Assembly (NCBI GenBank): GCA_024275165.1
Contig: JAJRZQ010000006.1
Span: 92,288 to 156,287, forward strand
DNA from: a bacterium
GTDB taxonomy: Bacteria > SAR324 > XYD2-FULL-50-16
DNA length: 64,000 nt
Reading direction: 5' to 3'
The position numbers and the translations under genes were made by a program. Within the stretch, counting starts at the first letter, position 1; the number at the start of each line of letters is the position of its first letter. The notes under the pieces are model-generated. The model ran no database searches. It was not told the origin of the DNA and saw only the letters and a list, made by a program, of their open reading frames with translations. Positions 1 to 34,610 of the stretch are shown in pieces.

Positions 1-301
1 TCTCTAAGATTTGCACAATCGCGGCAATCACCCCGATATAAGAAATAAAACCTAAAAAGCTCAAATCCGTATTGGGTAGCCCTGCCCAGGCCAAGGCCCC
101 CTCTTTGAGCACCAGAGAATAGATTAGGTTATTGACAGGTACCGTAATCGCCTGCACCAAAATAACCGCAATCCCCAATCCCATCGAGGTCTCAACTTTT
201 TTGGAGACCGCCAAAAAGGAACACATGCCCAGGAAAAACGCCAGGGCCATGTTTTCGATAAATAAGGACTTAATAAATAATGAAAGATAATGTTCGGCCA
301 T
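1..301 (-). CDS. nqrE: Na+-translocating NADH:quinone reductase subunit E (partial)
   Basis: Membrane subunit of the Na+-pumping NADH:ubiquinone oxidoreductase. The reverse strand opens with ATG at 301 and reads [20 protein letters not shown], then hydrophobic helices with the conserved [16 protein letters not shown] segment, typical of the NqrE/RnfA family. About 100 of the usual ~200 residues are present; the C-terminal half and nqrF lie beyond the left edge. The start is 2 bases after the nqrD stop, so it is the fifth gene of the nqr operon. NqrE and NqrD form a pseudo-symmetric pair that holds a 2Fe-2S centre in the membrane (family knowledge). Confidence 0.95.
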
Positions 302-8628: not shown

Positions 8629-8814
8629 GATTTATCGTTTGCTGGGGTTGACCTTTTAAAATAAAGAAAAAACGCTTAAAAATCAAGGCTTGATTGAAGG
8701 AGCTTATTTCATGGCCAGATTGAAAAGTTTCCATTGCTTTTTTTGATTTTTTTAAGATATTATCTATTGTCATGCAGAGCCAATCAAAATTAATTTCTTC
8801 TTAATGGAGCAGCC

Positions 8815-9225
8815 ATGCCTCTTCTGACTTGGAACGAAAACCTAAGTGTTAAAATTCTCTCTATCGACAATCAGCACAAACGATTGATTGATTTAATCAA
8901 TCAACTGCAAGACGCCATGTCTAGTGGAGACTCGCGTTCGGTCTTGGGTGAGATTTTCGATGGTTTACTGAATTACACGATTGAGCATTTTAAGTTTGAG
9001 CAAGACCTTTTTGCAAAGTACGGGTTCCCCGGTGCCGAGGACCACATTAAAGAACACGACCAATTCACCCAAAAGGTAGGCGACCTGCACAAGCAGTTTG
9101 TAGGGAGCAGCAACTTCATGATCGGGGTGGATGTAATGAAGTTCTTGACCGACTGGTTGGTCAACCACATCCAAGGGGTTGATAAAGGTTATTCTGACTT
9201 TCTGATCGCCAAAGGGGTCAAATAA
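8815..9225 (+). CDS. Bacteriohemerythrin
   Basis: Non-haem di-iron oxygen-binding protein of 136 residues forming a four-helix bundle. All seven iron ligands can be placed: His21, His58, Glu62, His77, His81, His118 and Asp123, in the motifs IDNQHKRL, EHFKFEQ, HIKEHDQF and HIQGVDKGY; these spacings match the Methylococcus capsulatus protein almost exactly. Such proteins store, deliver or sense O2 in micro-oxic or motile bacteria. Stand-alone gene; GGAG lies about 5 bases before the ATG. The upstream 186 bp are AT-rich and shared with trpD. Confidence 0.95.
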   Translation: MPLLTWNENLSVKILSIDNQHKRLIDLINQLQDAMSSGDSRSVLGEIFDGLLNYTIEHFKFEQDLFAKYGFPGAEDHIKEHDQFTQKVGDLHKQFVGSSNFMIGVDVMKFLTDWLVNHIQGVDKGYSDFLIAKGVK

Positions 9226-9564
9226 CTTTCAGTTCGCGACCCCGCAACCCGGCAAAGCGCATCGAAGAAAGCGCCTACTCGACAAAACTTGCGGGGCCTC
9301 GGCTCTCTCCAGCACCCCCTTCCAGACCGGAAATAAAAATTAGGTTGCCCCGTGGAAAAGGCCTCACTCAAGAGGTCCAGGCCCGCAAAGCGATTCACTT
9401 AAGGACCCCTCTGAAAAACTCCTTGCCTACCGCTTGCTCAAGCGTTAGGTTCGTGCCCTTCGGGCTGATTATAGCCCCTGAGGCGCATTGAGCTTTTCGG
9501 TCTTTTCGGTGGGGAATGAAATCCACAATCCCAACGCGAATCAACAAGTACCACTTTTTGATTG

Positions 9565-18279: not shown

Positions 18280-21200
18280 CTAGGGCTTTTTCTCAAAAAG
18301 TTTTTTCACTCCCCGGGCAAAGCCCTTTTTTGGCGGCCCGGTTTCTTGTGGGGGGTCTGCCTCCACTTGAGTCGGATGAACCGTTTCTTCCATTACCGGG
18401 GCCGCTTCCCCAGCCGGAGCCTTCAAGGCGAGGTAGCCCCACTTGGCCGGAGACCGCGCCCAAGCCAGCAGCCCCTCCCATTTGCCCAACCAATATTTTT
18501 TGCCGGTATCAATCAAGGAATAACAAACGGGCACCACGATTAAGGTCAAGCCCGTGGCCACCCCCAAACCGTAGATCACCGTTCGCGCCATGGGCACCCA
18601 CATGGCGCCGGACTCCGACCCAAGATGAATAATGCCGGGGCGATAAAAATTGATGTCCAACCCGATGGTGATGGGAAAAAGCCCCAGCATGGTGGTAATG
18701 GCCGTCAGCAAAACCGGGCGAATGCGCAGCATTCCCGCCAGCACAATCGCCTCTCTCCGCTCCATTCCCTTTGCCCTGAGCTGATTGATATAATCAATTA
18801 ATACAATCGCGTTATTTACCACCACTCCGGCTAGGCTGATGGTTCCAATCCCACCCATCATAATACTTACCGGGCTTTGATGGATGATCATCCCTAAAAA
18901 AACCCCCATAAAGGAAAGAAAAACGCTGATCATAATGATCAAAGGGAGCAATAGAGAATTAAATTGCAATACCAAAATCAAGAAAATCAAAAAGATGGCA
19001 ATGAAAAAAGACTTGCCCAAATATTGTTGCATTTCCTTGCGACTTTCATTCTCCCCTGTATATTCAATACGATACCCCTTAGGCAGAGGAAAGTCTTTGA
19101 GGTTTTTTTGTACCTTTTTCAAGGCGTTGGGGCCGCTGATTCCCTCCACATCCGCGCTGATGGTGATGACCGTTTTGGAATCAATATGGCGAATACTGCC
19201 TTTGGAGGCCGTGGGGAGGATCGTCGCCAGCTCGGCAAGGCTGACGGATTGGCCCTGCGGGGTTTTGACATAAAGCCGCTCAATATCGTTCAAAGAGGTC
19301 CGATGCGCCTCATCCAACCGCACGATAATATCATATTCTTCCTTGCCGATCCGATAGGTACTCACCTTGCGGCCATTAATCGCCGTGCGAATGATCCCCG
19401 CCACCTCGCGGGTATTCAACCCCAGTTTCGCAATCTTGATCCGATCCAGCTTGATTTGAATCTCGCTGCGGGTGCTGGTGAAGTCGTCACTGAGATTCAC
19501 CAAGCCTGGAATCGCCTTGATTCGCTGCTGAATTTCCAAACTCAATTCCTTCATTTGAGTTAAGTCATTGCCGTACAACTCCAGATTGACCGCCTTGCCC
19601 GAAGGGGGGCCCCGACTGGGTTTGGACAAGGTAAAGCTGCCCCCCGTAAACTGTTCCAGCAGAGGGCGAATTTGCGCAATCACCTCACTGGGTTTCACCG
19701 TCCACTCGCTCCAATCTGGAAAACTCAAGGTAATATGGCTTAAATGGGTCGTACTTCCCGAATCGCCACCCGAACCCTGCCGCTGGCCGATATTGGCCAC
19801 TACGGCGTCGGTAGCGGGCCAAAAGGGCTTGATGACCGCCTCCACCTGCCGTACCAGCCGATCACTGGTTTCTAAGGTACTGCCAAAGGGAGCCTTGATC
19901 TCAATGGTCGAACTCCCGGGCTCAGAGGTGGGAAAAAATTCCACCCCCGCCCGTTGGAACACCACCCCGATATAGATTCCCGCCAACAAAACCCAGAGGC
20001 CGAGCATCGCGAAAACCACCTTCCAACGATGATCCAACGACCAGACCAAGGCCTTTTTGTATTGTCGCAACCAAAGCGAACCATCGGAGAAATGATCTTC
20101 TCCCACCAACTTTAATTTTTTCGGGTTTTTCATCATCAACCCGCACAAAACGGGGTTAAAGAGCAAGCCCACAACTAAACTACAGGTTAGGGTAATGATC
20201 AAGGTCTTGGGCAAGAAACTCATGAACTGCCCCGAGATACCGGGCATAAACAACAAAGGGGCAAAGGCCGCCAAGGTGGTAAGGGTGGAAGTGATCACGG
20301 GAACCGCGACCTCACCGACCCCTAAACGGGCCGCCTCCATGCGAGGCAGCCCCGACTCCAGATGACGATAGATGTTCTCCACCACCACAATGGCGTTATC
20401 CACCAACATGCCCAAGGCTAAGATCAGGCTAAAAAGCACCACAAAATTCAGGGTCATCCCCACCCAGCTAATCACAATAAAGCTCAGCAACATCGAAAGA
20501 GGGATGGCCACGGCGATAAAAAGGCTGTTTTTAAAGCCCATAAAAAACATGAGTACCAGGCAAACAAAAATCAAGCCCGTGTAAATGTTGTTTTCCAAAT
20601 CACTCACCAAACTGCGAATTCGCTTCGATTCATCGTTTAGGATGTTAAAGGCTACTTTATCCCCCCATTTGCCCTGCTCTTGCGCCACGATTCCTTTGAT
20701 TTCGTCACTGATGGCAATGAGATTTTCCCCCGTGCGCTTCGAAACCGAAAGGCTGACCGAATCCACCCCATTCTTACGGCTGCGGCTGGTGATCTCTTGG
20801 AAACCGTAAACCACCTTCGCCACATCTTGGGTATAGATGGGCAATTGATCGGCAGCGGTGATGACCATGGTTTTAATCTCTTCGGGGTCGGTGATCTCAC
20901 CGGGCACCCGAATATTGTATTTCATCGTGCCCACGGTGATATTCCCGGCAGGCAAACTGGTATTTTCCCTTTGGATGGTATTGGAAACCTGATTGAGATC
21001 AAGGTTGTAATAAACCAATTTATCCGGGTCCACCTCAATGCGCACCTCGCGCTCTAATCCCCCGGCTCGCTTGACTTCCAAAACCCCGTGTACCCCTTCG
21101 ATCCGGTCTTTTAAATCTTCGGCAATCTCTTTTAAACGCAACAGACCCAGCTTGCCGGCCAGGTTGACAATCATAATCGGTCGCTCAGAAAGGTTGATTT

Positions 21201-21594
21201 CCTTGATCAGCGGGTCTTCTGCCTCAGCGGGCAACTCAGGGGCCACCCGATCTAAGGATTCGCGTACCCTAGCGCGCGCCTCGTCGATATCCACGCCCAA
21301 AACAAATTCCAGGGTAATCATCGCCGCCCCCTCGGTGGCGGTGGATTTCATTTCCTTTAACTGATCCAACCCCTTAAACTCGGTTTCTGCCTTATGGATG
21401 ATCAGCGCCTCCACATCTTCAGGAGAGGAACCGGGATAAGGAATGGTCACAATCAACCGAGGAATTTGAATATCCGGGGCAGATTCTCGTGGGAGGGCGC
21501 GATAATCCAAAAATCCAATCACCGTGATGAGGACAATCAAGATCAGCACCCCAGAAGCTTTATTGAGAGCAATCTCTGCTGGTTTAAATCTCAT
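18280..21594 (-). CDS. RND efflux transporter permease (AcrB/HAE type)
   Basis: Inner-membrane proton-driven efflux pump, 1104 residues, twelve helices and two large periplasmic loops. N-terminus MRFKPAEIALNKASG then the first helix and PRESAPDIQIPRLIVTIPYPGSSPEDVE. Helix 4 reads LGMLVDNAIVVVENI: the first proton-relay Asp of AcrB is kept while the second is Asn, as in several non-AcrB clades. A long hydrophilic C-terminal tail rich in Pro, Glu and Lys follows the last helix. It overlaps the MFP gene by 4 bases. The substrate is unknown; the local TetR suggests a drug-like or lipophilic inducer. Confidence 0.95.
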   Translation of the reverse strand: MRFKPAEIALNKASGVLILIVLITVIGFLDYRALPRESAPDIQIPRLIVTIPYPGSSPEDVEALIIHKAETEFKGLDQLKEMKSTATEGAAMITLEFVLGVDIDEARARVRESLDRVAPELPAEAEDPLIKEINLSERPIMIVNLAGKLGLLRLKEIAEDLKDRIEGVHGVLEVKRAGGLEREVRIEVDPDKLVYYNLDLNQVSNTIQRENTSLPAGNITVGTMKYNIRVPGEITDPEEIKTMVITAADQLPIYTQDVAKVVYGFQEITSRSRKNGVDSVSLSVSKRTGENLIAISDEIKGIVAQEQGKWGDKVAFNILNDESKRIRSLVSDLENNIYTGLIFVCLVLMFFMGFKNSLFIAVAIPLSMLLSFIVISWVGMTLNFVVLFSLILALGMLVDNAIVVVENIYRHLESGLPRMEAARLGVGEVAVPVITSTLTTLAAFAPLLFMPGISGQFMSFLPKTLIITLTCSLVVGLLFNPVLCGLMMKNPKKLKLVGEDHFSDGSLWLRQYKKALVWSLDHRWKVVFAMLGLWVLLAGIYIGVVFQRAGVEFFPTSEPGSSTIEIKAPFGSTLETSDRLVRQVEAVIKPFWPATDAVVANIGQRQGSGGDSGSTTHLSHITLSFPDWSEWTVKPSEVIAQIRPLLEQFTGGSFTLSKPSRGPPSGKAVNLELYGNDLTQMKELSLEIQQRIKAIPGLVNLSDDFTSTRSEIQIKLDRIKIAKLGLNTREVAGIIRTAINGRKVSTYRIGKEEYDIIVRLDEAHRTSLNDIERLYVKTPQGQSVSLAELATILPTASKGSIRHIDSKTVITISADVEGISGPNALKKVQKNLKDFPLPKGYRIEYTGENESRKEMQQYLGKSFFIAIFLIFLILVLQFNSLLLPLIIMISVFLSFMGVFLGMIIHQSPVSIMMGGIGTISLAGVVVNNAIVLIDYINQLRAKGMERREAIVLAGMLRIRPVLLTAITTMLGLFPITIGLDINFYRPGIIHLGSESGAMWVPMARTVIYGLGVATGLTLIVVPVCYSLIDTGKKYWLGKWEGLLAWARSPAKWGYLALKAPAGEAAPVMEETVHPTQVEADPPQETGPPKKGFARGVKKLFEKKP

Positions 21595-22619
21595 TGTTGG
21601 GCGATCTGATCACGGGTTTGTACCACTTCGATCTCCTCATTGTGAGCAATCAATTCCTGACCCACGATGATCAGGTGATCTTCAAAAGCGACCCCCTCTT
21701 TGATTTGCACCTCCGAGCCCTGACTGATCCCTAAGCGAACGGGCCGTTTCAGGCTATGCCCCTTGTTGACCAAATAAACATAAGAGCCTTTCTCATCCTG
21801 CAGCACGGCGTAACGAGGGATCACCACCTGCCGAGAAAGGTCATAAGTCGTCATCCGCACCCGAGCCAGCATTCCCGGCAAAAGTTCGAATTGGGGATTG
21901 GAAATCTCGACTTCAATCGCAAAGCTTCGGTTTTGGGTGTTCGCCTCCCGACTCACCATGGAGATCACCCCCTCATAAGTTTGCCCGGGAATGGCATCGA
22001 GACTGACCATCACCTCTTTCCCAACCTTCGCAAAGCGGATATCCCGCTCTGGCAGATTGATTTCTGCCTTCACCCACTTCATGGAGATCAACTCCAAAAG
22101 AAGCTTTCCCCGAGCTTTATATTCCCCCTGCTCCACTTTTTTTTTCGAGACCACCCCATCAATGGGGCTTTTGACCGTGGACTTCGCCAAGTCCAAGCGA
22201 GAAAGCTCCATCTGGTATCGGTTCACTTCCATCTTGGTTTTTAAGGTTTCCACCTGCGACTTGGCCGATAACCCTTGTTTGTACAGTTCTTTTTCCCGCT
22301 TGTACTCCGCAAAGGCGAGCTTGTAATTGGCACGATTAAGCTTATGGGCCAAGGCCGATTTACTGGTTTCAAAGCGCACCAAAACCTGGCCCTCGGTGAC
22401 CCTTTGCCCAAGGTCGAAATTGGCTTTTTCAATGATTCCCTCCACCTCAGAGCTGATGGGAACCCGTTCCTTCGGGGCCAAATGCCCCACGAAAGAGGCA
22501 TAGCTGGTCAAGCTACGCGGTTTGATCACCAAGGCTTTCACCTTGGTCAACTTCGCTCCCGCTTGAGCCATCGACCCCATTGAGCAAAGTAAGAAAATCA
22601 AAAACAGGCTTTGTTTCAT
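21591..22619 (-). CDS. RND efflux periplasmic adaptor (membrane fusion protein)
   Basis: 342 residues. Signal peptide MKQSLFLIFLLCSMGSMAQA, then the lipoyl-like half motifs (SSEVEGIIEKANFDLGQRVTEGQVLVRF and STVKSPIDGVVSKKKVEQGEY) flanking an alpha-hairpin (about residues 90-145), then beta-barrel and membrane-proximal domains. It links the RND pump to the TolC-like channel. It is coupled on both sides by ATGA overlaps. No lipobox Cys is visible, so it is probably a soluble periplasmic or signal-anchored protein. Confidence 0.93.
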   Translation of the reverse strand: MKQSLFLIFLLCSMGSMAQAGAKLTKVKALVIKPRSLTSYASFVGHLAPKERVPISSEVEGIIEKANFDLGQRVTEGQVLVRFETSKSALAHKLNRANYKLAFAEYKREKELYKQGLSAKSQVETLKTKMEVNRYQMELSRLDLAKSTVKSPIDGVVSKKKVEQGEYKARGKLLLELISMKWVKAEINLPERDIRFAKVGKEVMVSLDAIPGQTYEGVISMVSREANTQNRSFAIEVEISNPQFELLPGMLARVRMTTYDLSRQVVIPRYAVLQDEKGSYVYLVNKGHSLKRPVRLGISQGSEVQIKEGVAFEDHLIIVGQELIAHNEEIEVVQTRDQIAQQ

Positions 22620-24181
22620 GAGGAAAGAGGGTACAGGTTAAAGACCTGATCGGTCATTAAAAGTAAATCCAAAAAAGTCTTTTCATAGGCAATCAAAGCT
22701 TGATTCAGCCGCATCTGGGCTTCGGCTAAATCCTGCTGGGCTAAGGCAACACGAAAACTGGTGGATTGACCCACTTTAAATCTTGCCGAGGCCTTGCCAT
22801 AGAGTTCTTCGTTGAGTCGCACCCCGGTTTGGGCTAAGCGAATCGCCTCTTCATTTAAACGCAGCGTTTGCAAAAGCGAGTAAAAGTTCACCTCGGTCAC
22901 TGCTTTTTGATTTTCCAATTGCAAAATGATGCGCTCCCCTTCCAACTCCGCCTTAATGCGTTTGCGCTGCCCTTGATGGTTAAAAAGAGGAACTTGCCAA
23001 GTCAAGGCCACTTGGTAATCCACCGCGCCTTGCTTGCTCACGCCTCTGGCCGCCTCAGAGGCAAAGGTGCCATACCCATTTTGTTGGTACTTCAGGCTCA
23101 AATCCAAGTTGCTGGAATCTGCGTTATTTGCCTCTTGCAAGTCCAACTCATTCAAACTGATTCCCGCCCGCAATAGCGCCAAATCCGGGTCTTGTTGCAA
23201 AGCCCGGGCTAAAAGCTTATCTTCGGGCAAAGGCAGGGGTTTGATCTGCGGTTCTTCCTTCGCCCAATACTCTAGTTTTAAATTCCTTAAGTCTAAAAAG
23301 ACCTTGATTTGATCCTCAATCAAGCGCTTTTTGGTTATTTCCGTTAAGAGTTCTTGCTCTGCCAAGGCCAATTGAGTCTTTGCCTGGGTCACCTCGGTGG
23401 GGTCTAGGGCCCCTAAGCGAAACTTCGTTTCCGCCTCCTTTAAGACCCGGTTCGCCAATTCTTTGGCAGAGGCTCTGACCTGAATGTTTTTCTGCGCCGC
23501 GACCAGATCCCAATAGGCCCCTCCCACTTGACGCAACAAGGCTCGATTGGCTTTTTGCTCTCGGTGTTGCGCCTGGATAAACAAGGCCTCACCCCGGTAT
23601 TCAGGGAGGTAGCCAATGGAGCCGAAATCTTTCAACAAAGGTAATTTCATCTCCGCGATCCAGCTATCGGCAATATAGGCATCATCCAGGGCGATAAATT
23701 TACTCAAAGGTTGATCCGGCGAAGTAAAATAAGCGATAAACCCTTTTCTGCTGGCCCTTTGATAGGTCAACCCATAACTCAAACCCCATTTGGCCTTTTG
23801 ACTAAATCCGGTACTGGCGATGACGGAATCGTTTCTGGAATAGGGCAACCCGGAAGCCTTAGAACTCACAAAACTGGAAGAAAGCAGGTTGCCGCTACGG
23901 GTATTGACCACTTGATTGCTCCAGGTCAAGGGATTCATCGCCTGCTGCTCTTGCCAGTCGCGCAAGGCCTGCTTGGTTTCAATGGAGGAAATTTTATACC
24001 CCGTCGCTCGCTCCACCGTCAGGGCTAAGATCTGGCCCAAACCCACGGCAAGCTTTTTCTTCCCCTCAATGACAATCTGGCTCAAGCCTTTCGGCAAAGC
24101 GGGATTAAATTCCGCCTTCAAGCCCTCCGCGCTCAAAAGCAGGCACCCCAAACCAAGGAAAAGCCCCCGCAATGCTTTCAT
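22616..24181 (-). CDS. TolC-family outer-membrane efflux channel
   Basis: 521 residues with signal peptide MKALRGLFLGLGCLLLSAEG. Long amphipathic helices rich in Ala, Gln and Leu, with the repeated OEP pattern (for example ANRVLKEAETKFRLGALDPTEVTQAKTQ in the first half and NEELYGKASARFKVGQSTSFRV in the second). It forms the trimeric exit duct for the adjacent RND system. It overlaps tetR and the MFP gene by 4 bases each. No lipobox. Confidence 0.9.
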   Translation of the reverse strand: MKALRGLFLGLGCLLLSAEGLKAEFNPALPKGLSQIVIEGKKKLAVGLGQILALTVERATGYKISSIETKQALRDWQEQQAMNPLTWSNQVVNTRSGNLLSSSFVSSKASGLPYSRNDSVIASTGFSQKAKWGLSYGLTYQRASRKGFIAYFTSPDQPLSKFIALDDAYIADSWIAEMKLPLLKDFGSIGYLPEYRGEALFIQAQHREQKANRALLRQVGGAYWDLVAAQKNIQVRASAKELANRVLKEAETKFRLGALDPTEVTQAKTQLALAEQELLTEITKKRLIEDQIKVFLDLRNLKLEYWAKEEPQIKPLPLPEDKLLARALQQDPDLALLRAGISLNELDLQEANNADSSNLDLSLKYQQNGYGTFASEAARGVSKQGAVDYQVALTWQVPLFNHQGQRKRIKAELEGERIILQLENQKAVTEVNFYSLLQTLRLNEEAIRLAQTGVRLNEELYGKASARFKVGQSTSFRVALAQQDLAEAQMRLNQALIAYEKTFLDLLLMTDQVFNLYPLSS

Positions 24182-24780
24182 GTTTCCTGCTCGATCAATT
24201 GCCCGACGAGCAAAGTCAAAATCTCCTTAGCCCCTTGCTCCGCGTTCATAAAGGGGGAGTGGGCTCCATAGAACCGCCGCTGGTTGATCATCCCTTCCCG
24301 CAATAGAGAAAAACCGAGCAATACCCTTTCTAGCCCTTGGGGCTCTAGGGGTTTTTGAAAATAACTTTGCAAATCCACTCTCATCTGTTGAATCATGCTT
24401 TTTTTAAACTCTTGGACCTGCTTGCGAAAGGATTCATCGCGCTGTACCCGCTCTAAAATAGCGATATAGCCTTCGCCTTGTTTATCCATCACCTGCTTTA
24501 CGCTAAAATCAAAGGCCGCCCGCAGGTATTCGCTCGCGGTATTGCAGCGTGCTTGTTGAAAGATTTCCAGCTTTTTTTCCACCTGTTCTTTCATGCTGAA
24601 CATCAGCACTTCATCCACCCCGGAAAAATGATGATAGAGGCTCGACTGGCTGACCCCGGCCTGGGCGGCGATCCCTCTGGTGGTCAGTTTGTCGATCCCT
24701 ACCTTTTCAATCAGCACCTGCGCCGCTGCCAAGATGCGTTTGCGGGTTTTCTCCCCCTGTTTTTTGCGTTGATCCTTCAT
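24178..24780 (-). CDS. TetR-family transcriptional regulator
   Basis: 200 residues. N-terminal helix-turn-helix: KTRKRILAAAQVLIEKVGIDKLTTRGIAAQAGVSQSSLYHHFSGVDEVL, then an all-helical ligand domain. I start it at the ATG at 24780 because GGAAAGGAAAGGG directly precedes it; the next ATG upstream (24795) lies close to the likely transcript start. It is the first gene of its own efflux operon, and its promoter is covered by a palindrome (24831-24842), which fits autorepression relieved by an efflux substrate. Confidence 0.9.
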   Translation of the reverse strand: MKDQRKKQGEKTRKRILAAAQVLIEKVGIDKLTTRGIAAQAGVSQSSLYHHFSGVDEVLMFSMKEQVEKKLEIFQQARCNTASEYLRAAFDFSVKQVMDKQGEGYIAILERVQRDESFRKQVQEFKKSMIQQMRVDLQSYFQKPLEPQGLERVLLGFSLLREGMINQRRFYGAHSPFMNAEQGAKEILTLLVGQLIEQET

Positions 24781-24811
24781 CCCTTTCCTTTCCATACCTG
24801 TATCATTTTAC

Positions 24812-24994: not shown

Positions 24995-25546
24995 ATGAAG
25001 ACCTATATCTACCTCTTAGTCGGATTGAGTTTTTTTGGATTCTCCCCCCTCTTGCGCGCGGAACTGCCGCCCGTATTGGACATCTTACGAGTCGAAAAAA
25101 TACAAGAAATCAAAAAATTGCTGCAAACCGAGCTGGGAACCCAGGATTTTCAAGTCCAATTAAACTGGCAGGCCACCACCCGCAGCGCCCCAGCCAAACC
25201 CTCTTGGAAAATCAAAAAAATCAATGGAGATTACCCCAAAGAGGGGCGATTTTTGCCGAAGGAAACCGAGATTTTAGGCGATACTCAGTTTATTTTGCGC
25301 AAACAAGAGGCAAATATTTCCATCCAAACCCGCTTGAGCCAAGAAAAAGCCGCAAAACTCCAAAGCCAAATCAAAACACTTTTAGTTCTCAACAACAAGC
25401 GGGGGGACCAGCTTCACCTGAACTTCAAACTACGCCCCGCTGTTCCCGTAGCCAAAGCGAAAGCCCCCAGCCTGACCCCTGAAGAAGCGGTCTTACTAGA
25501 GGCAAAGGCGCGGTTGAACTCGGCCCCGAAACCCTGCAAGCCCTAG
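24995..25546 (+). CDS. FliF ring-domain-like N-terminal fragment of a frameshifted FliF/FliG-like protein
   Basis: 183 residues as read. I start at ATG 24995, which gives a signal peptide (MKTYIYLLVGLSFFGFSPLLRA) with cleavage near residue 22. A periplasmic segment follows. Residues 108-146 (ISIQTRLSQEKAAK, then LLVLNNKRGDQLHLNF) follow the pattern of the last ring-building domain of FliF, which ends with the conserved KRGD-x-L-x-V before TM2. The frame ends at 25546 after a Pro-rich tail, LNSAPKPCKP, that looks out of frame. In the next frame, open from 25483, the coding sense continues with a membrane helix and the FliG-like region; one lost base around 25483-25546, perhaps in a G run near 25512, would explain this. 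Homology is by pattern only. Confidence 0.6.
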   Translation: MKTYIYLLVGLSFFGFSPLLRAELPPVLDILRVEKIQEIKKLLQTELGTQDFQVQLNWQATTRSAPAKPSWKIKKINGDYPKEGRFLPKETEILGDTQFILRKQEANISIQTRLSQEKAAKLQSQIKTLLVLNNKRGDQLHLNFKLRPAVPVAKAKAPSLTPEEAVLLEAKARLNSAPKPCKP

Positions 25547-26595
25547 CCCATGCAACCCCTGAGGCACAAACAACCTCACCCAACCCAGCGCTGCAACGGC
25601 TGAAAGCAATCTTTTCTTGGAAGAGCCTAGCCCTCTTCGCCTTCTTTCCCCTGATTTTTTGGATTCTACGCAAAAACCGTCCAGCGCCCCAAAAATCCGG
25701 CACCACCGCAGATAAATTTAAAACCAAGGCACCTATGGAACTGATCCAACGCATTGAACGGGCAGACCAATTAGCCCAAGAACAAGACCTAGCCCCAATG
25801 GAAAAAATGATTGCCTATACCGGGGATATGGAACTAGATTTAGATTATGAGATCAACCTGGAAATGGATGAGGTCATTCTCGCCGCGGAACAAGCTTTAA
25901 CCGAGGCCGAGAAGCTACGAGAAGAAAAAAACCCCTTAGACCTACAAACCGCTTTAAAAAGCACGGAAGAAGAGCCCAGCAGCGTGGATTTTTCTTTTTT
26001 AAACCGGCTAGAAACACCCGCCCTTACCGAGCTGTTTGCCCAAGAAACCCCGCTCGTGCGGGCCTTGATCATCAGCCGCTTGAGCCTGCGCAAGGCCGAA
26101 GCGATCTACGCCTCCATCAAGCCCCAAGAGCGCTTTGAAGTGGTTTGGGAATTAGGGAACCTCCACCTCTTAAAGCAGGACGAAAAAACAGCTCTCTCCC
26201 TAGAGCTCCAGGTCAAAGCCAACCAGCAGGGGAGCGAAAAATTAAGGCTAGTCAGCGCGCCCCAGAGCGAGGTATTCTTAGACGACATCTTTACCGATCC
26301 CTTAACGCTGGATGAACTCTCTAAATTGAGCCGCCCCCTTTTGGTAGAAACAGCCCATCGCATGAACTTAGAAGATTTAATGATCGCCTTAAGCCATGCG
26401 CCCAAGGTTTTAAAAGAACGCATGGTCGCTGCCTTAGACAGCGCCAGACGAATCGAGTTTTTACAAGGAGTTCAAGGCCTGCGAGCCGACTTAGATGACA
26501 GCATGGAGCGCCAACAGATTCTCTTAGATACGGCTCAGGCCATTCTAGACGAGCAAAAGGCAACCCGTTCAGCCATTGATTTAAAACAAGCATGA
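25483..26595 (+). CDS. FliG-like C-terminal portion of the frameshifted FliF/FliG-like protein
   Basis: The open frame runs from 25483 to 26595; its first ATG is 25735 (AAGG 7 bases upstream), giving 286 residues if translated alone. The stretch before that ATG is clearly coding: a helix KSLALFAFFPLIFWILRKNRP resembling FliF TM2 and its basic exit. From ATG 25735, residues 88-145 (ETPLVRALIISRLSLRKAEA) resemble the FliG middle domain and residues 178-275 (NLEDLMIALSHAPKVLKERM) the start of FliG-C. The final torque helix is not evident. No flagellar genes are nearby. The stop overlaps the ATG of the outer-membrane barrel gene, so the two products are coupled. The restored full protein would be about 533 residues. 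Confidence 0.65.
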   Translation, partial: RSGLTRGKGAVELGPETLQALAHATPEAQTTSPNPALQRLKAIFSWKSLALFAFFPLIFWILRKNRPAPQKSGTTADKFKTKAPMELIQRIERADQLAQEQDLAPMEKMIAYTGDMELDLDYEINLEMDEVILAAEQALTEAEKLREEKNPLDLQTALKSTEEEPSSVDFSFLNRLETPALTELFAQETPLVRALIISRLSLRKAEAIYASIKPQERFEVVWELGNLHLLKQDEKTALSLELQVKANQQGSEKLRLVSAPQSEVFLDDIFTDPLTLDELSKLSRPLLVETAHRMNLEDLMIALSHAPKVLKERMVAALDSARRIEFLQGVQGLRADLDDSMERQQILLDTAQAILDEQKATRSAIDLKQA

Positions 26596-27593
26596 AATTA
26601 AGCTTTCCCCTCCTCCTGCTCATGGCAGCGGGGTGGAGCCTGCCCCTCCTCGCTCAGGTGGCAACCGCCCCCTTGGATTCGAGTTTAGAAATCCGCATGC
26701 CCCAAGCAGCAAGCTGGCGCTTTGTCAAAGCGGGAAACGAACAAGACGACAACCGTACCGCCACCTTGGCCGGGGTCACCTTCAACGGCAAGGGAGAAAG
26801 CGACAACCAGCAAACCGACTGGGAAACAAGCGGCAAATCTTTCCTCCTCATTGCCCAGACCGAAAATGTCAATATCGAGGCCTACAACCGCACCAGTCTA
26901 AAAACCACCATCAACTTTCAGGCCTATGACTGCACCCGCGTTGACGACATTCCCCTCTGCGGCACCGGCAAGGTAACCCAAGATCGGGTCGAAAACCGGC
27001 TCGGCTTTTCCCTCAAGGCCAAGGGGGCCAGCTACGGCGCAAGCTACAACACCGAAGAATTCTCTTGGGCCAACTCCAGCCCCTATAAACGACAAAGCTA
27101 CGCCTTAGGCGGCACCTGGCAGTTTGGCAAGGTCTTGTTTGCCTCCCTAGGGCTAGAGCGGGTCACCCAATCGAATCTCTACCTCCCCACCCTGAACTGG
27201 AACAACCAAATCTGGGCTTTTGGGGTCATGGCAGGCAACCCGGAGGAGACACAATTAAGATTGGAGTATGCCGGGATCACCAGCCCGGAAAAAAATAAAA
27301 CCGATGACTTGGGCAGAACGCAGCGCCACCAAGGAGAGCAAAAAAGCCTGCTCAGCGCGGAAGTCAAAATGCAGGGGATTTTATTGCACTTTCGCAAAGA
27401 AACAACCCGTTACCTCACCGCGACCTACTGGGGGGAGCAAAGTCGCAGCCGCAGCATAATGGGCCTCGGTTGGGCCCCCAGCAACGGCATTATCGCCTCT
27501 GCCCAAGCTTATACCGATCACTATCAAATCTCCACCAGCCAACCCGACCAAGTCGCCAAATCCTTGCGGCTTTCTGTAGGTTATAATTTCTAA
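26592..27593 (+). CDS. Predicted outer-membrane beta-barrel protein
   Basis: 333 residues with signal peptide MKLSFPLLLLMAAGWSLPLLAQ. The mature part is rich in alternating polar/aromatic strands (RQSYALGGTWQFGKVLFASLGLE, IWAFGVMAGNPEETQLRLEYAG) and ends LRLSVGYNF, the terminal-Phe signature recognised by the Bam machinery. Two Cys (YDCTRVDDIPLCGTG) could form a loop disulphide. I do not recognise the family. ATGA overlap with the FliG-like gene upstream indicates a joint function. The stop is only 12 bases from the convergent phoU. Confidence 0.7.
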   Translation: MKLSFPLLLLMAAGWSLPLLAQVATAPLDSSLEIRMPQAASWRFVKAGNEQDDNRTATLAGVTFNGKGESDNQQTDWETSGKSFLLIAQTENVNIEAYNRTSLKTTINFQAYDCTRVDDIPLCGTGKVTQDRVENRLGFSLKAKGASYGASYNTEEFSWANSSPYKRQSYALGGTWQFGKVLFASLGLERVTQSNLYLPTLNWNNQIWAFGVMAGNPEETQLRLEYAGITSPEKNKTDDLGRTQRHQGEQKSLLSAEVKMQGILLHFRKETTRYLTATYWGEQSRSRSIMGLGWAPSNGIIASAQAYTDHYQISTSQPDQVAKSLRLSVGYNF

Positions 27594-27605: not shown

Positions 27606-28265
27606 CTACTCCTCTTGGTGGCGTACAATAACGCCCTCCACCAAGTAAATCACATCTTCGGCGATATTGCAGGCTAAATCCCCAACCCGCTCCAAATAGC
27701 GAGAAAGCGAAGGGAGCTGGATGATCACATCAATCCGGTCTAAGCTTCGTTTCATCTCCTCTTTAACCACCTCATAAACAGCGGCGTGGCGATCATCCAC
27801 CTCATCGTCTTGAGCGATCACCTCACGGGCCTTATTCGGGTCCATTTCAATCAAGGAATCCAGCGCTTTAGAAAGCATTCCTTGGGCAATATCCGCCAGC
27901 CCAATCAAATCAAAGGGAAACTTACCCGCCTCGAGGCGATGCAGGTCAATAATCCGCTCTGCCATGTTGACGCTAAAATCGTTGATCCGTTCCAACTCAT
28001 TGTTGATCTTTAAGATGGCCACCACAATGCGCAAATCAATCGCTACGGGCTGGTGCAAGGCGAGGGTTTTTAAGCATTCTTCTTCAATATCGATCTCCAT
28101 CTGATTGATGATCTCTTCTTCTTGCTCAATCAAGCGCTTGGCTTCGGATACATCCAAACGATCTACGGCAACCACGGCGTCATGGACATTTTGCTCCACC
28201 TTGGCACCCATCTCCAGAATCATTTTCTTTAATGATTCAATCTCTTTGTGTATATGTATACTCAT
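27606..28265 (-). CDS. phoU: Phosphate transport regulator PhoU
   Basis: 219 residues, two three-helix bundles with the repeated E/D-x-x-x-D metal-binding motifs (for example NNELERINDFSVNMAERI and YLERVGDLACNIAEDVIYLVEG). PhoU links the PstSCAB transporter to the PhoR/PhoB two-component system and restrains phosphate uptake. It is the last gene of the pst operon, 5 bases after pstB. PhoB/PhoR are not in the window. Confidence 0.97.
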   Translation of the reverse strand: MSIHIHKEIESLKKMILEMGAKVEQNVHDAVVAVDRLDVSEAKRLIEQEEEIINQMEIDIEEECLKTLALHQPVAIDLRIVVAILKINNELERINDFSVNMAERIIDLHRLEAGKFPFDLIGLADIAQGMLSKALDSLIEMDPNKAREVIAQDDEVDDRHAAVYEVVKEEMKRSLDRIDVIIQLPSLSRYLERVGDLACNIAEDVIYLVEGVIVRHQEE

Positions 28266-28270
28266 AACTC

Positions 28271-29050
28271 TTATCCAAATCGTCCTGTAATATAATCTTC
28301 GGTCTGCTTTAAACTCGGTTTGGTAAAAATTTGCCCTGTTTCGCCAAATTCAATGAGCTTGCCTTCAAAGAAAAACGCGGTATAATCACTCACCCGGCTG
28401 GCCTGCTGCATATTATGGGTTACTATGATAATAGTATAGTCACCTCGCAAATCTAAAATCAATTCTTCAATTCTCGCGGTTGATTTTGGATCCAAGGCAC
28501 TACAGGGCTCATCCATCAATAAAATCTCTGGGTTGACCGCAATGGCGCGCGCAATGCAAAGCCGTTGCATCTGCCCCCCTGAAAGCCCCATGGCCGAGGT
28601 GTGCAATCGGTCCTTCACCTCATCCCATAAAGCGGCTTTTTTTAAACTCGTTTCCACCACTTCGTTCAGCACCGACTTTTTGCCCTGCCCAGCGATCCGC
28701 AAGCCATAGACTACATTTTCATAGATTGATTTGGGAAAGGGGTTCGATTTTTGAAAAATCATCCCGATTCGCCTTCTCAATTGAATGGGATCTTGGTCTT
28801 TGTGGTTGATATCAATATAATCATCCAAGATCAAACTCCCCGTGATGCTCACATCACCGACTAAGTCATTCATCCGGTTAAAGCAACGCAAAAAAGTGGA
28901 CTTGCCGCAGCCCGAAGGCCCGATAAAGGCGGTGACCTGATGTTTGGGCACCTCCATATTAATATCAAACAGGGCCTGGGATTGGCCATAGAAAAAGTCC
29001 AATTCCTTTACGGAAATAACACTTTCAAAATCCGTTGGGTTCATGCTCAT
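28271..29050 (-). CDS. pstB: Phosphate ABC transporter ATPase
   Basis: 259 residues. Walker [10 protein letters not shown], signature [15 protein letters not shown], Walker [14 protein letters not shown], and the PstB-specific [23 protein letters not shown] around the Q-loop. Drives high-affinity phosphate import through PstA/PstC. The start is one base after the pstA stop. The [10 protein letters not shown] Cys is the usual PstB feature. Confidence 0.98.
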
Positions 29051-29051
29051 C

Positions 29052-30659
29052 CTAAAAAGCTTTCGCTTGGTATCTCTTGCGTATCTTATTGCGCAAAATA
29101 ATGCTGGTACTAGAAAGAAGGATCACAATGCTCAAGAGCAATAAGGTCGTCACAAAAACCATGGGTTTTGCCGCCTCCACATTGGGCGACTGAAAACCGA
29201 CATCATAGATGTGAAAACCCAAGTGCATAAATTTGCGTTCCAAATGAATAAAGGGAAAAGTCCCGTCAATCGGTAAAGCAGGGGCGAGTTTCACCACCCC
29301 GGTGATCATCAAGGGGGCCACCTCCCCCGCGGCGCGGCTCATGGCTAAAATAAACCCGGTGATAATCCTCGGGCTCGCCATGGGCAGGGTCACCTTCATC
29401 AAGGTCTGAAACTTCGTGGCCCCCAAGGCGAGGCTGCCGTGGCGCACATCGGAGGGCACCCCGCCTAAGGCCTCTTCGGTGGCGACAATCACCACCGGTA
29501 CGGTCAATAAAGCCAAGGTCAGGCTTGCCCATAAAATTCCCCCCGTACCAAATGTGGGGGTGGGCAATTGTTCGGGATAAAAAATCTGATCTATCCCTGA
29601 ACCAATCGTATAGATAAAAAAGCTTAACCCGAAAATCCCCCAGACAATACTGGGAATCCCCGCCAAATTATTGACCGCAATGCGAATGGTCTGCAACAAA
29701 AACCCGGGGCTAGCGTATTCCTTCATGTACACGGCCGCCACCACCCCCATGGGGAAGGAGAAAAGGCTCATGGTCAAAACCAGCATCACCGTACCGATAA
29801 TCGCGGGGAAAAGCCCTCCTTCCGTATTGGATTCCCTCGGCTCGTCGAAAAAGAGTTCCCACAAATGGGCAAGGTAATGGGAAAGCTTGGCAAAAAGCCC
29901 CATTTGGTTGGGTTGGTATTGGCGAACAACATGGGATAAGGGTAGGGTTTTTGTGGTGCCCTCGGCGTCTCGCAGTAATACTTGGTATTGCGACAAAACC
30001 GTATGCTGCTTCCCTTGAGCCTCTAAAAGCAAATCAAAATGTTCCCTTAAAACTCGTTGTTCCGCCTCGATTGCGGCATGATTTTCCCCCTCGTATTGGG
30101 CTTTGAGAATTTTTCGCCTCAAGGACTCCATCTCGACTGCGACGCTCTTAATCTCCTCATTCAATCGAGCTAAAACCTGCACCTCTTCGGTAAATGAAGG
30201 CTCAATCCGCTCTAAGACATTGGGCCCTTGAACCGGCTCTGCGCCGGTAAGCGGACTTTGATAGCCTTGGATAAAGCCGTAAAAGTTCCCGTATTCCGTC
30301 CGTTCAATCGCTACCGCTTCTTTCGGATAGGTGATCCGCGAGATCGTTTTAGACTGAATCCATTTAAAGTCGAGACTATATAACTCTCGATTGCCTACCT
30401 TAAGCTGAATCCGTTCCTCACCCGTATGGGGGTGCAGGGTGGTTTGCTTGATCTCGCCGAGATAATACTCCCCTGAGTTGGTTTCAACCAAGGCTAAGGA
30501 ATGGGGCCAGAAGGCGACAAAGCCGTTTTTCACAATCACAAACAAGAGCGTACCGATGATCAACAAAATCATACCGACTCCGATTGAGCTAAGCCAGATA
30601 AAGGCCTCGCCCTCGCGCCAAAACCTACCTTTGACGATCCCGGGGTTAGAATTGAGCAT
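29052..30659 (-). CDS. pstA: Phosphate ABC transporter permease PstA (long form)
   Basis: 535 residues, nearly twice the E. coli length. One N-terminal helix is followed by about 250 residues of periplasmic sequence with a coiled-coil stretch ([23 protein letters not shown]), then the normal six-helix permease core with the EAA-type loop ([25 protein letters not shown]). Long PstA proteins of this kind pair with long PstC in many marine proteobacteria. It overlaps pstC by 14 bases. Confidence 0.95.
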
Positions 30660-32889
30660 AACGCTTCCTTAAGGCACTCCGCACTATCTCAGCGAGGCTA
30701 TTGATAACAAAGGTAAAAGCGAACAAAATCACGGCCGATAAAAACAGTACTCGGTAGAGGGTTCCGTCCACCGGGGCCTCGGGAATCTCTACCGCTATAT
30801 TGGCCGACAAGGTACGCATCCCATTAAAGGGACTGAGGTCAATAATCGGGGTATTCCCCGTGGCCATTAAAACAATCATGGTCTCCCCAATCGCTCGCCC
30901 CATGCCTAAAATCACACCCGCAAAAATCCCCGGGCTGGCGCTGGGCAAAAGCACTTTCCACAGGGTTTGCCACCGACTGGCCCCCAGGGCTTGACTGGCG
31001 GCCTTTAAGCTAGGGGGGACACCGGACAAGGCATCATCGGTCATGGTAAAGATAAAAGGAATCACGATAAACCCCAGAGCGAACGCAATAATAATGCTGT
31101 TGCGTTGGTCGTAGTCGCTTGCTAGGTTTTCCAAAATCCAACGATGAAAATCCCCGCCAAAAAAGACCCCTTCCACCCCCGGGGCAATCAACATCGCCAC
31201 AAACAAGATCAACACCGCCAAAGGAATCATCAACAACAACTCCCTGGATTGCTCAAACTTTTGAAAGCGTTTTTGGCAACGGAGCCTGGCCCAAATGAAT
31301 AAAAAAAGCCCAAAACCCATATGCAGCAAAACCAGGTACAAAAAGAAGGTCAAAAGCCCTTGGTGAATCAAGGGGGCAAGCCATAAGGCCGCGATAAAAC
31401 CGATAATAACGCTGGGCACGGCCGCGGTAATCTCTACGGTGGGCTTGACCCAAGCGCGAAAACGAGGGCTGGCAAACTCGTTGGTATAGACCGCGCCTAA
31501 AATACCTAGGGGCAAGGCAAAAAGCATGGCATACAAACTGCCTTTCAGGCTGCCGAAGATCAAAGGGGTTAGACTGAATTTTGCCTCGAAATCATCCGCG
31601 CCAGCAGAGGATTGCCAAACCAAGGCGGGCTCGTCATACCCCTCATACCAAAGCTTTTGAAACAAAGACTTAAAATTGATTTCTGGGTGCGGCGTGGAAA
31701 CCGACCACAAATGCAGGCGCTTGGCCTGATCTAAAGCAAATAAACCGTTCCCCCTCGGCCCTAGGTCAAATAGTTTCAAACCGGCTAAAGCGACAAATTC
31801 CAAAAGGTGCTTTTCACTGGTTACATGATCGAGATGAACTCGACCGGTTTGATCGCGACTCAAAATCGCTTTGTGGCGCAGGCTTGTTTGAATCTCTACA
31901 ATCGAGCTGCTGTGGCGTTGAAAGCGATGTACCAAGGTCAAATGTCGATTCCCGTACGGCCCGGTGACCCCGGCAAGGCTAAAAAGTTGGCCCTGAGCGT
32001 CCCCAATGGCCAAGGACTGATCCCCAAAAACCAAAGCCATCGCCGTTAAGGGATGCGGTTCCCCAAAAGGCAACACCTCGTCAACCAGCTCGGCGCTCTC
32101 TTCCCCTAAATTCCACGCGAGAACCCGCCCCTCCGCGGTATAAGCATATAACTTTTCCCCATTGCCGCTGAGGGTAAAGTTTTGAATCGGGTAGGGAGAA
32201 TCTAAGATAAAACCTTGAACCTCAGGCGCGGCTTCATCGCTATTCTCTGCCAAAAACATGGCCATGAGGTCGTCACTTTGGGCCGCCGCCCCCTTTCTTA
32301 AAATCTGCAGCCGACCCGAGGGCAACAGAGCCGCCACCACGGCGGAGTCTTCCCCCTGGCGACCGATCACCTGGAGCGGCTGTTCTGCGAACTCGCTGGG
32401 CTCAACCTGCAAAAGGTTTTCCACCTGAGGGCGCACCACCCTTTTCGGGATTTCATCCCCTTCATAAACAGGGACTAAGGCGAGCCGATCCAAGCGAAAA
32501 TCACCGGAACTCAATAAAGAAGAAAAAAGCGTGCCTTGCCGTTCCACAAAAAGAATTTTGCGGCCCCCGACCCAGTCGGGCAAGGGATGACTTTGACTGA
32601 CCTGTTCTTGAACCAGATCGATTACAAAATAATGACCTTGATCAGAAAGCCAAAGACCCTTTTCCAGATATTCATCCAGTAAAAGGGCCATGGGTTTGCC
32701 TGCCGCCTCGGGCAAGGCGAAGCGGGTAAGCTTCGTTTGCCCGGAGCCAAAAAAGAGAGGCAGAGTCACCTCGATCAAGAGCGCGAGGATTCCAATCACA
32801 CAGATTAGAATGAATACCCCGCCAATACTTATCAGCCGTTTCGCTAAATAGTCAGCCCTCTTGTTACGCTCTAAGATCTTGCGTTCCAT
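30646..32889 (-). CDS. pstC: Phosphate ABC transporter permease PstC (long form)
   Basis: 747 residues. An N-terminal helix (about residues 20-45) is followed by some 350 periplasmic residues with repeated blades resembling a WD-like propeller (for example GNGEKLYAYTAEGRVLAWNL and LAIGDAQGQLFSLAG), then the permease core with the EAA loop (DDALSGVPPSLKAASQALGASRWQT). The propeller may receive PstS or polyphosphate-bound ligands; its role is not established. Starts 6 bases after pstS. Confidence 0.95.
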   Translation of the reverse strand: MERKILERNKRADYLAKRLISIGGVFILICVIGILALLIEVTLPLFFGSGQTKLTRFALPEAAGKPMALLLDEYLEKGLWLSDQGHYFVIDLVQEQVSQSHPLPDWVGGRKILFVERQGTLFSSLLSSGDFRLDRLALVPVYEGDEIPKRVVRPQVENLLQVEPSEFAEQPLQVIGRQGEDSAVVAALLPSGRLQILRKGAAAQSDDLMAMFLAENSDEAAPEVQGFILDSPYPIQNFTLSGNGEKLYAYTAEGRVLAWNLGEESAELVDEVLPFGEPHPLTAMALVFGDQSLAIGDAQGQLFSLAGVTGPYGNRHLTLVHRFQRHSSSIVEIQTSLRHKAILSRDQTGRVHLDHVTSEKHLLEFVALAGLKLFDLGPRGNGLFALDQAKRLHLWSVSTPHPEINFKSLFQKLWYEGYDEPALVWQSSAGADDFEAKFSLTPLIFGSLKGSLYAMLFALPLGILGAVYTNEFASPRFRAWVKPTVEITAAVPSVIIGFIAALWLAPLIHQGLLTFFLYLVLLHMGFGLFLFIWARLRCQKRFQKFEQSRELLLMIPLAVLILFVAMLIAPGVEGVFFGGDFHRWILENLASDYDQRNSIIIAFALGFIVIPFIFTMTDDALSGVPPSLKAASQALGASRWQTLWKVLLPSASPGIFAGVILGMGRAIGETMIVLMATGNTPIIDLSPFNGMRTLSANIAVEIPEAPVDGTLYRVLFLSAVILFAFTFVINSLAEIVRSALRKRYAQF

Positions 32890-32895
32890 CCACCC

Positions 32896-33864
32896 TTATT
32901 TGATGTTCTTTAATTGCGCCTTCACTAATTTTGCAGTTAAAGGAAGGTAACCGTCTTTGACTACAATCTTTTGCCCTTCTTTGCTCAAGACAAAGCGTAA
33001 GAACTCGCGGGTCAATTTATCCATGCGTTGACCGGGCTTTAAGGGAACATAAATGTACAGCATGCGACCTAAAGGGTACTTCCCTTTCAGCACATTTTTA
33101 TAATTAGGTTCATAGTATTCTTTTCCGTCTTTGGAAAGAGCAATAGCTTTCACTCCGCTAGTTTTGTACCCAATCCCCGAATAGCCAATTCCAGCTAAAT
33201 CTTCGGTTACGCCCAAGACCACGGAGGCACTGCCGGGTTGCTCCTTAACACTGTTTTTAAAGTCGCCTTTGCACAGGGCATGCTTTTTAAAATAACCGTA
33301 GGTGCCACTCGCCGAGTTCCTGCCGTATAAGCTTACCGGCCTGTTGGCAAACTTGCCTTTTAGGCCCACTTGACCCCATTGGGTGATCTCTCTTTTGCCG
33401 CATTTGCGAGTTGAAGAAAAAATCGCATCCACCTCTTTAATGGTCAGGCGTTGAATCGGGTTATCCTTGTTCACAAACACGCCTAGGCTGTCTAGAGCCA
33501 CCCCAATCCGGGTGGGCTTGTAGTGATGCGCCTTTTCAAAAGCTTCGATCTCTTTCTTTTTCATGGCGCGGCTCATGGGGCCTAATTGAGAGGTGCCTTC
33601 GGTCAAGGCAGGGGGGGCGGTACTGCTGCCTTTGCCTTCAATCTGAATATTTACGTTGGGGTAAGTTTTGCGGAAGTCTTCTGCCCAATAGGTCATTAAG
33701 TTGTTCAAGGTATCCGAACCCACCGAGTTGAGATTTCCCCCAACCCCGCTGGTCTTTTTATAAGACACGATACGCTTATCTACCTTGATACCCGCCATTG
33801 CGCTTTGGCTGACCAGTGCCAGACAAAGACCTAAGAAAAAAGTCTTGAGATGAGAAGGAGCCAT
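32896..33864 (-). CDS. pstS: Phosphate-binding periplasmic protein PstS
   Basis: 322 residues from the ATG at 33864, chosen because AGAGGT lies just upstream and the protein then begins with a normal signal peptide (MAPSHLKTFFLGLCLALVSQSAMA); an ATG nine codons further up is also in frame. Mature features: SVGSDTLNNLMTYW at the first phosphate loop, GKGSSTAPPALTEG, and SLYGRNSASGTYGYFK, the phosphate-binding segments of the PstS family. First gene of pstSCAB-phoU and preceded by a Pho-box-like repeat. Confidence 0.95.
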   Translation of the reverse strand: MAPSHLKTFFLGLCLALVSQSAMAGIKVDKRIVSYKKTSGVGGNLNSVGSDTLNNLMTYWAEDFRKTYPNVNIQIEGKGSSTAPPALTEGTSQLGPMSRAMKKKEIEAFEKAHHYKPTRIGVALDSLGVFVNKDNPIQRLTIKEVDAIFSSTRKCGKREITQWGQVGLKGKFANRPVSLYGRNSASGTYGYFKKHALCKGDFKNSVKEQPGSASVVLGVTEDLAGIGYSGIGYKTSGVKAIALSKDGKEYYEPNYKNVLKGKYPLGRMLYIYVPLKPGQRMDKLTREFLRFVLSKEGQKIVVKDGYLPLTAKLVKAQLKNIK

Positions 33865-33956
33865 TGATACCTCTTTATAAGGAAAAATCATGCGGTTAAG
33901 TTACTCGGGCCGTCAACTCGGCAAAGAGTAGAAGTTGGATTCAATCTATGACCCAA

Positions 33957-34040: not shown

Positions 34041-34610
34041 ATGAATAAAGATCGTTTAATCATCGGCATTACCGGCGCGAGTTCGGTGATCTACGGGGCG
34101 CGCCTCTTAGAACACCTCAAAGCCTTGGACCTCGTAGAGACGCATTTGGTTTTATCTGGTGGCGCCAGCGAAACCCTACGCTTGGAAACCAATAAAGAAC
34201 CGCAAGAAGTGCGCGCCTTGGCGGATCAGGTTTGGGAAGAGATGGATTTCACCGCCCCGATTTCTTCTGGGTCTTATCAAACCCTAGGAATGATCATCCT
34301 CCCCTGCTCCATGAAAACCCTAGCTGCCGTTTCCCATGGCTACGACGATAATTTACTTTCCCGCGCCGCGGGGGTGCAGCTCAAAGAACGGCGCAAGCTC
34401 GTCCTTTGCCCTAGAGAGACCCCCATGCACAGCGTCCATTTGCAAAACATGCTCACCTTGAGCCAAATGGGCACGATCATCCTACCTTGCGTCCCCGCTT
34501 TTTATCATCAGCCCTTGAGCATCGAAGACTTAATGGATCATTCGATTGGTAAAATCTTAGACCAATTTAAGCTTGAGCATCAACTCTATCGCCGCTGGAG
34601 AGAAAAGTGA
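34041..34610 (+). CDS. ubiX: Flavin prenyltransferase UbiX
   Basis: 189 residues. Makes prenylated FMN, the cofactor of UbiD-type decarboxylases (ubiquinone synthesis and others). N-terminal GITGASSVIYGARLLEHL binds flavin phosphate; ISSGSYQTLGMIILPCSMKT and RAAGVQLKERRKLVLCPRETPMH are the conserved prenyl/FMN site segments. GAGGAG precedes the ATG at 34041. No ubiD is in the window. Its stop overlaps the GTG start of the following ATPase gene. Confidence 0.95.
   Translation: MNKDRLIIGITGASSVIYGARLLEHLKALDLVETHLVLSGGASETLRLETNKEPQEVRALADQVWEEMDFTAPISSGSYQTLGMIILPCSMKTLAAVSHGYDDNLLSRAAGVQLKERRKLVLCPRETPMHSVHLQNMLTLSQMGTIILPCVPAFYHQPLSIEDLMDHSIGKILDQFKLEHQLYRRWREK

Follow-up and report, generated by a model that had tools for sequence, protein, structure and literature searches.

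The window, a 64,000-nucleotide stretch of DNA from a SAR324 genome (2.69 Mb, 98% complete), holds a split gene for a protein that appears to join the end of FliF to FliG (FliFG), followed by a gene for an outer-membrane barrel. This pair is probably the reduced remnant of a non-flagellar MotAB–FliFG envelope machine of SAR324. The assignment rests on gene content, on orthology by synteny and profiles, and on predicted folds in a relative. In several SAR324 lineages, FliFG lies in an operon with MotA, MotB, further FliF-like ring proteins, TPR proteins and outer-membrane proteins. The features of the window locus are as follows.

18280..24795, minus strand: flank with RND pump, membrane fusion protein, TolC-like protein and TetR; the same in L082, in part in L007/L091
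24995..25546, plus strand: ORF1 of split FliFG, signal peptide and RBM3-like periplasmic domain with NNKRGDQLHLNF
25076..25447, plus strand: RBM3-like region, ORF1 residues 28–151 (hhalign to intact relatives)
25397..25408, plus strand: KRGD motif, end of the RBM3-like domain
about 25500..25546, plus strand: frame-switch zone (ORF1/ORF2 overlap and codon preference)
25483..26595, plus strand: ORF2 frame of split FliFG, membrane helix and FliG-like cytoplasmic part
25612..25668, plus strand: membrane helix, SLALFAFFPLIFWIL region, helix sequence SLALFAFFPLIFWILRKNRP (from the sequence)
26023..26235, plus strand: FliG_M match, ORF2 residues 181–251 (Pfam)
26278..26547, plus strand: FliG_C match, ORF2 residues 266–355, shorter than in intact relatives (Pfam)
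26592..27593, plus strand: outer-membrane β-barrel protein, about 14 strands, terminal Phe (AF2 model; orthologues after FliFG in L082 and L039)
27606..33891, minus strand: flank with phoU, pstB, pstA, pstC and pstS; phoU also after the barrel in L082

ORF1 (24995–25546) and the open frame at 25483–26595 overlap and are out of frame with each other. The original prediction had treated them as one protein of about 533 residues, and the codon statistics bear this out. Judged by the codon usage of the other window genes, the preferred frame changes once, from ORF1 to ORF2, at about 25,515–25,525; GC content by codon position is gene-like on both sides of the switch, and both halves retain coding character. 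The restored gene (24995–26595) comprises about 533 codons, and its anatomy is as first described, with a signal peptide, a periplasmic part, the KRGD segment, a membrane helix and FliG-like helices. The frame switch may be a real frameshift or an assembly error. A programmed frameshift was also considered, and inspection of the sequence revealed no clear slippery run at the switch. The RGD is common to ORF1, the intact relatives and flagellar FliF, and in length and arrangement (signal peptide, single RBM, then membrane helix) ORF1 agrees with the corresponding part of an intact relative, P0005.

Profile searches returned the FliG resemblance first read from the letters, weakly for the window copy and well over the cut-offs for its intact relatives. 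In the window protein, the Pfam matches come in domain order, FliG_M (E 0.0033) before FliG_C (E 0.0042), yet neither reaches its curated cut-off, and the matches to TIGR00207 (E 9e-4) and to the PDB FliG 3hjl (E 0.0036) are weak. A contig search across the genomes with the window FliFG as sole query gave no match because the protein is too diverged. It is the intact orthologues, the synteny and the comparison of profiles that make the strong case. In hhalign comparisons with the intact relatives, ORF1 alone is colinear through the RGD with an E value of 2.5e-4 and a probability of only 43%, and ORF2 alone aligns with an E value of 1.5e-11. Combined with its orthologues from genomes G009 and G010, which are single intact frames of 597 and 606 residues, the window protein matches the FliFG family with a probability of 99.3 and an E value of 3.4e-20.

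Two genomes of the same family as the window genome (G007 and G005) encode FliFG proteins of 602 and 608 residues, each in one frame, with a signal peptide, a periplasmic domain ending in RGD, a membrane helix, FliG_M and FliG_C. Pfam E values for the intact relatives are 4e-11 for FliG_M and, in G007, 2.5e-14 for FliG_C, and both domains are matched well over the cut-offs in all 13 aligned relatives. A profile of these 13 finds FliG in the PDB with an E value of 1e-22 and a FliF with 0.0025. Counting strong matches only (E < 1e-50), an intact FliFG of about 600 residues is present in 27 of the 52 genomes of the SAR324 class. A pattern scan with the intact relatives, which distant relatives in other phyla would escape, gave 27 named loci with FliFG, all titled SAR324, Candidatus Lambdaproteobacteria, or something older or vaguer (Deltaproteobacteria, Proteobacteria, bacterium); the system may also occur outside SAR324.

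The fold evidence for FliFG is taken from the intact relative P0005; the second model is that of the window barrel. The AlphaFold2 model of P0005 has a mean pLDDT of 76 and a pTM of 0.31, and its periplasmic domain follows an α-β-β-α-β order. Residues 24–154 superpose on FliF RBM3 with Z values of 11–12.3, and residues 289–582 superpose on full-length FliG with Z values of 14–16 (both by VIA-align 2). The single M and C domains fit FliG at 1.6–1.8 Å, whereas the RMSD on the whole of FliG is large because the domain arrangement differs. SpoIIIAG and needle-complex ring proteins give weak fold matches (Z about 6.9). P0005 lacks TM1, RBM1 and RBM2; ahead of its membrane helix stand a signal peptide and just one RBM. 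Given the fold matches of P0005 and the profile and domain matches, the FliFG family is, as modelled, FliF RBM3, TM2 and FliG in one chain. The proposed joining of the FliF end and FliG in one polypeptide is thus upheld by intact orthologues, by synteny and by matches to both folds. An unrelated membrane protein with helical repeats that resembles FliF and FliG by chance would suit the domain scores of the window copy alone, which stay below the curated cut-offs, but this has a negligible probability: the domain matches are ordered, the intact orthologues score well above the cut-offs, the folds match both FliF RBM3 and FliG, and the gene order is common to the relatives. For the FliFG family, chance resemblance is already contradicted.

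The full locus is represented by L006, with the gene order MotA, MotB, outer-membrane protein, TPR lipoprotein, two RBM-like/TPR proteins and, last, FliFG. Its domain matches are MotA_ExbB (E 2e-22), MotB_plug (3e-12) with OmpA (6e-12), and TPRs, and the first RBM-like protein matches YscJ_FliF_C (E 2.4e-4). The MotA of the locus is of the flagellar type by sequence (PDB MotA 2e-27 versus TolQ 0.008), and so is the MotB; the counterparts of E. coli R90 and E98 have no confident alignment in the system MotA. The outer-membrane protein (L006:7815-8924) has no Pfam match above the cut-off; by eye, its N-terminal part is FlgO/CsgG-like, and a short C-terminal barrel ends in Phe.

Other arrangements were also observed. 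In genus g19, the system-type MotA/MotB are unlinked from FliFG, and a flagellin-like gene is found within a few kb of them (L124:8078-9686, L126:9033-10641). A B-type FliFG–MotA–MotB locus (L040, L041, L042, L044, L045 and L050) occurs in 14 genomes of SAR324 family f4; it encodes a fusion of about 550 residues with a strongly diverged FliG_C, a MotA of about 288, a long MotB of about 523 and a porin-like protein of about 416, often with a FecR-like gene. A third, distant fusion of 746 residues with a proline/lysine-rich N-terminal part is found in G042 (L127:8384-13010), followed by MotA- and MotB-like genes, and genes resembling a contractile, phage-tail-like injection system lie just downstream. 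The window gene does not seem to belong to the B-type, the second paralogue group: searching the window genome with a B-type query gave no match, and the gene order places the window gene with the 600-residue group instead.

The window genome has a true FliG on contig C16 (E 6e-42), a true FliF on C47 (E 5e-35) and a flagellar MotA/MotB pair on C21; these separate genes show that the window FliFG is a different protein from the flagellar one. Genes for export, rod, hook or switch are seen neither in the relative loci read nor around the window gene, where the original prediction had likewise noted no adjacent flagellar gene. In three flagellar FliG proteins of SAR324, all five torque charges (K264, R281, D288, D289 and R297) are kept. 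By comparison, each of the 27 intact FliFG relatives has S, T or A at the positions of D288 and D289, which means that the torque interface of the flagellum is not preserved, and the equivalents in the window lineage are not D or E. FliFG and its MotAB might be an accessory of the ordinary flagellum that modifies or anchors the motor, since the same genomes encode flagella and the unlinked MotAB of g19 lie near a flagellin-like gene. We consider this improbable: stator, RBM, TPR and outer-membrane genes of their own are present in the loci, no export, rod, hook or FliM/FliN genes could be seen there, and the encoded FliFG proteins do not preserve the torque residues.

That the window pair is what remains of a larger locus is evident from L082. 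There, RND, membrane fusion protein, TolC and TetR genes are followed, divergently, by MotA, MotB, outer-membrane, TPR, RBM, RBM-TPR, FliFG and barrel genes, and then by PhoU. Both flanks, FliFG and the barrel are common to the window and L082, and the six genes between TetR and FliFG are missing from the window. The flank from RND to TetR also stands, in part, beside the full MotA–MotB…FliFG operon in L007/L091. No system-type MotA or RBM-TPR protein was found elsewhere in the window genome (G000, 98% complete), G009 or G010; in the same three genomes, the outer-membrane protein of the full locus finds only a partial match, of 20% identity, in G009. Because the flanks and barrel match L082, six genes are missing and no system-type MotA or RBM-TPR protein was found elsewhere in the genome, we regard the window as a reduced locus, and the short form as derived, since the full form is widespread in the phylum. 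The reading of the window pair as a complete system was rejected in view of the full locus of L082. Hence, the original prediction of a rotor-like envelope complex suits the wider family, but the window pair is not a minimal complete rotor: relatives add MotA, MotB, a second outer-membrane protein, a TPR lipoprotein and two FliF-like/TPR proteins. In a MotA+MotB tree, the window genome groups with G009 and G010 with a bootstrap of only 62%, so one or two independent reductions may have occurred. Just past the pst operon of the window lies a ubiX-like gene (34041–34610), and in L007 such a gene (8747–9316) directly follows FliFG, possibly another trace of a common gene order.

The barrel gene starts at 26592 and overlaps the FliFG stop codon (26595) by ATGA, as predicted. 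Its product has 333 residues with a signal peptide, a closed β-barrel of about 14 strands and a C-terminal Phe; the AF2 model, from an alignment of three sequences only, has a mean pLDDT of 65 and matches CymA (Z 24) and OmpG (Z 21.7) best. A PHROGs search gave no match. The proposed link of FliFG to an outer-membrane barrel extends to orthologues in L082 (34% identical) and L039, and the barrel is retained in G000 and G009. It is not a constant neighbour: among the loci read, no barrel homologue was found in L038 or, after the fusion, in L006/L007.

The window FliFG shares 24–26% identity with its nearest orthologues, compared with about 90% for flagellar FliG, and may be a decaying gene. Fast divergence, the shortened FliG_C and the frame switch make decay or a passive role likely. 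Caution is needed on decay, as the neighbouring TetR and TolC are likewise fast-evolving (32–38% identity), and the intact frames of 597–606 residues in G009 and G010 argue for a retained role. A functional, repurposed protein is conceivable: FliFG might form a static ring in the inner membrane and serve as scaffold or gate for the porin-like 14-strand barrel, either stator-less or driven by the flagellar MotAB. The intact orthologues of about 600 residues, the barrel kept in G000 and G009, the coding character of both gene halves and the flagellar MotAB of these genomes fit such a ring; the divergence, shortened FliG_C, frame switch and barrel-less L038 do not, and we think it rather unlikely.

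In the complete machine of which the window probably holds a remnant, the conserved parts suggest an ion-driven assembly spanning the envelope. Ion flow through MotA/MotB would act on the FliG part of FliFG. As RBM3 and FliG are covalently joined, we propose that force would go straight to a putative periplasmic ring, which other periplasmic proteins, containing RBM3-like and TPR parts, may join. The ring would meet outer-membrane parts and do work there, such as surface movement or the opening or moving of outer-membrane cargo. Tentatively, and with a chance that we place just short of even, SAR324 has a second, non-flagellar motor in which a ring of one-piece FliF/FliG chains, turned or pulled by MotAB, passes force on through stacked RBM-TPR rings to outer-membrane proteins, and of which the window lineage would retain a stator-less ring. 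The replacement of D288/D289 in 27 of 27 relatives, which argues against a plain repeat of the flagellar mechanism, and the unlinked MotAB of g19 speak against the proposed machine. The window lineage lacks the genes for the stator and the stacking rings; FliFG and the barrel, if the FliFG copy is still made, would thus amount to no more than a passive anchor or ring.

FliF and FliG are generally seen as parts of the flagellum. If the proposal is true, the flagellar rotor–stator unit can be split off from the flagellum and work by itself as an envelope motor; force would reach outer-membrane proteins, and the machine, with several forms in one phylum, would be a trans-envelope motor of a new class that serves gliding, transport or the movement of adhesins. 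The host belongs to a globally abundant, uncultured ocean phylum in which the system is widespread and operon-encoded without export genes, and such a motor would bear on flagellar evolution and on the way SAR324 acts on substrates or surfaces. With its reduced locus, the window would add a natural deletion series for asking which parts are needed. No description of a MotAB–FliFG system was found in searches of the open-access literature. A survey of MotAB and its non-flagellar homologues mentions neither SAR324 nor FliF in its text (PMC12505986), and the paper on the SAR324 phylum names, as motility genes, generic flagellar ones only (PMC9031357). MotAB–FliFG appears to be an undescribed envelope machine of the MotAB type, which may well prove to be a new class when its function becomes known.

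Compared with the flagellar FliF, FliG and MotAB, FliFG shares the RBM3 fold, the RGD before TM2 and the FliG N/M/C folds, and the full loci also encode flagellar-type MotA and MotB. It differs in being one polypeptide, in its replaced torque charges and, in the intact relative, in lacking TM1, RBM1 and RBM2; its loci have outer-membrane, TPR and extra RBM-like proteins in place of export, rod and hook. The nearest published precedent that we found, and the best-known exception to flagella-only FliF/FliG, is the small FliF–FliG fusion of Chlamydiaceae, likewise a natural joining outside the ordinary flagellum; it has about 330 residues and only FliG_M, is linked to few flagellar genes, and is described with no MotAB operon or outer-membrane barrel (PMC4768692). 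Engineered FliF–FliG fusions (PDB 8z4d, PMC11481574) have the same covalent order and assemble rings, so such chains can work, although they are artificial and contain the full FliF. SpoIIIAG and needle-complex ring proteins, like FliFG, carry RBM-type domains outside flagella, but without a FliG part or MotAB. The ring parts of T9SS/GldLM and of Agl-Glt gliding are not known to be homologues of FliF or FliG, and the stators are of another type than the MotAB of the FliFG loci. Both systems use different ring parts, and in both, as proposed for the FliFG system, a stator-type ion channel is coupled via the periplasm to outer-membrane parts (PMC13104615).
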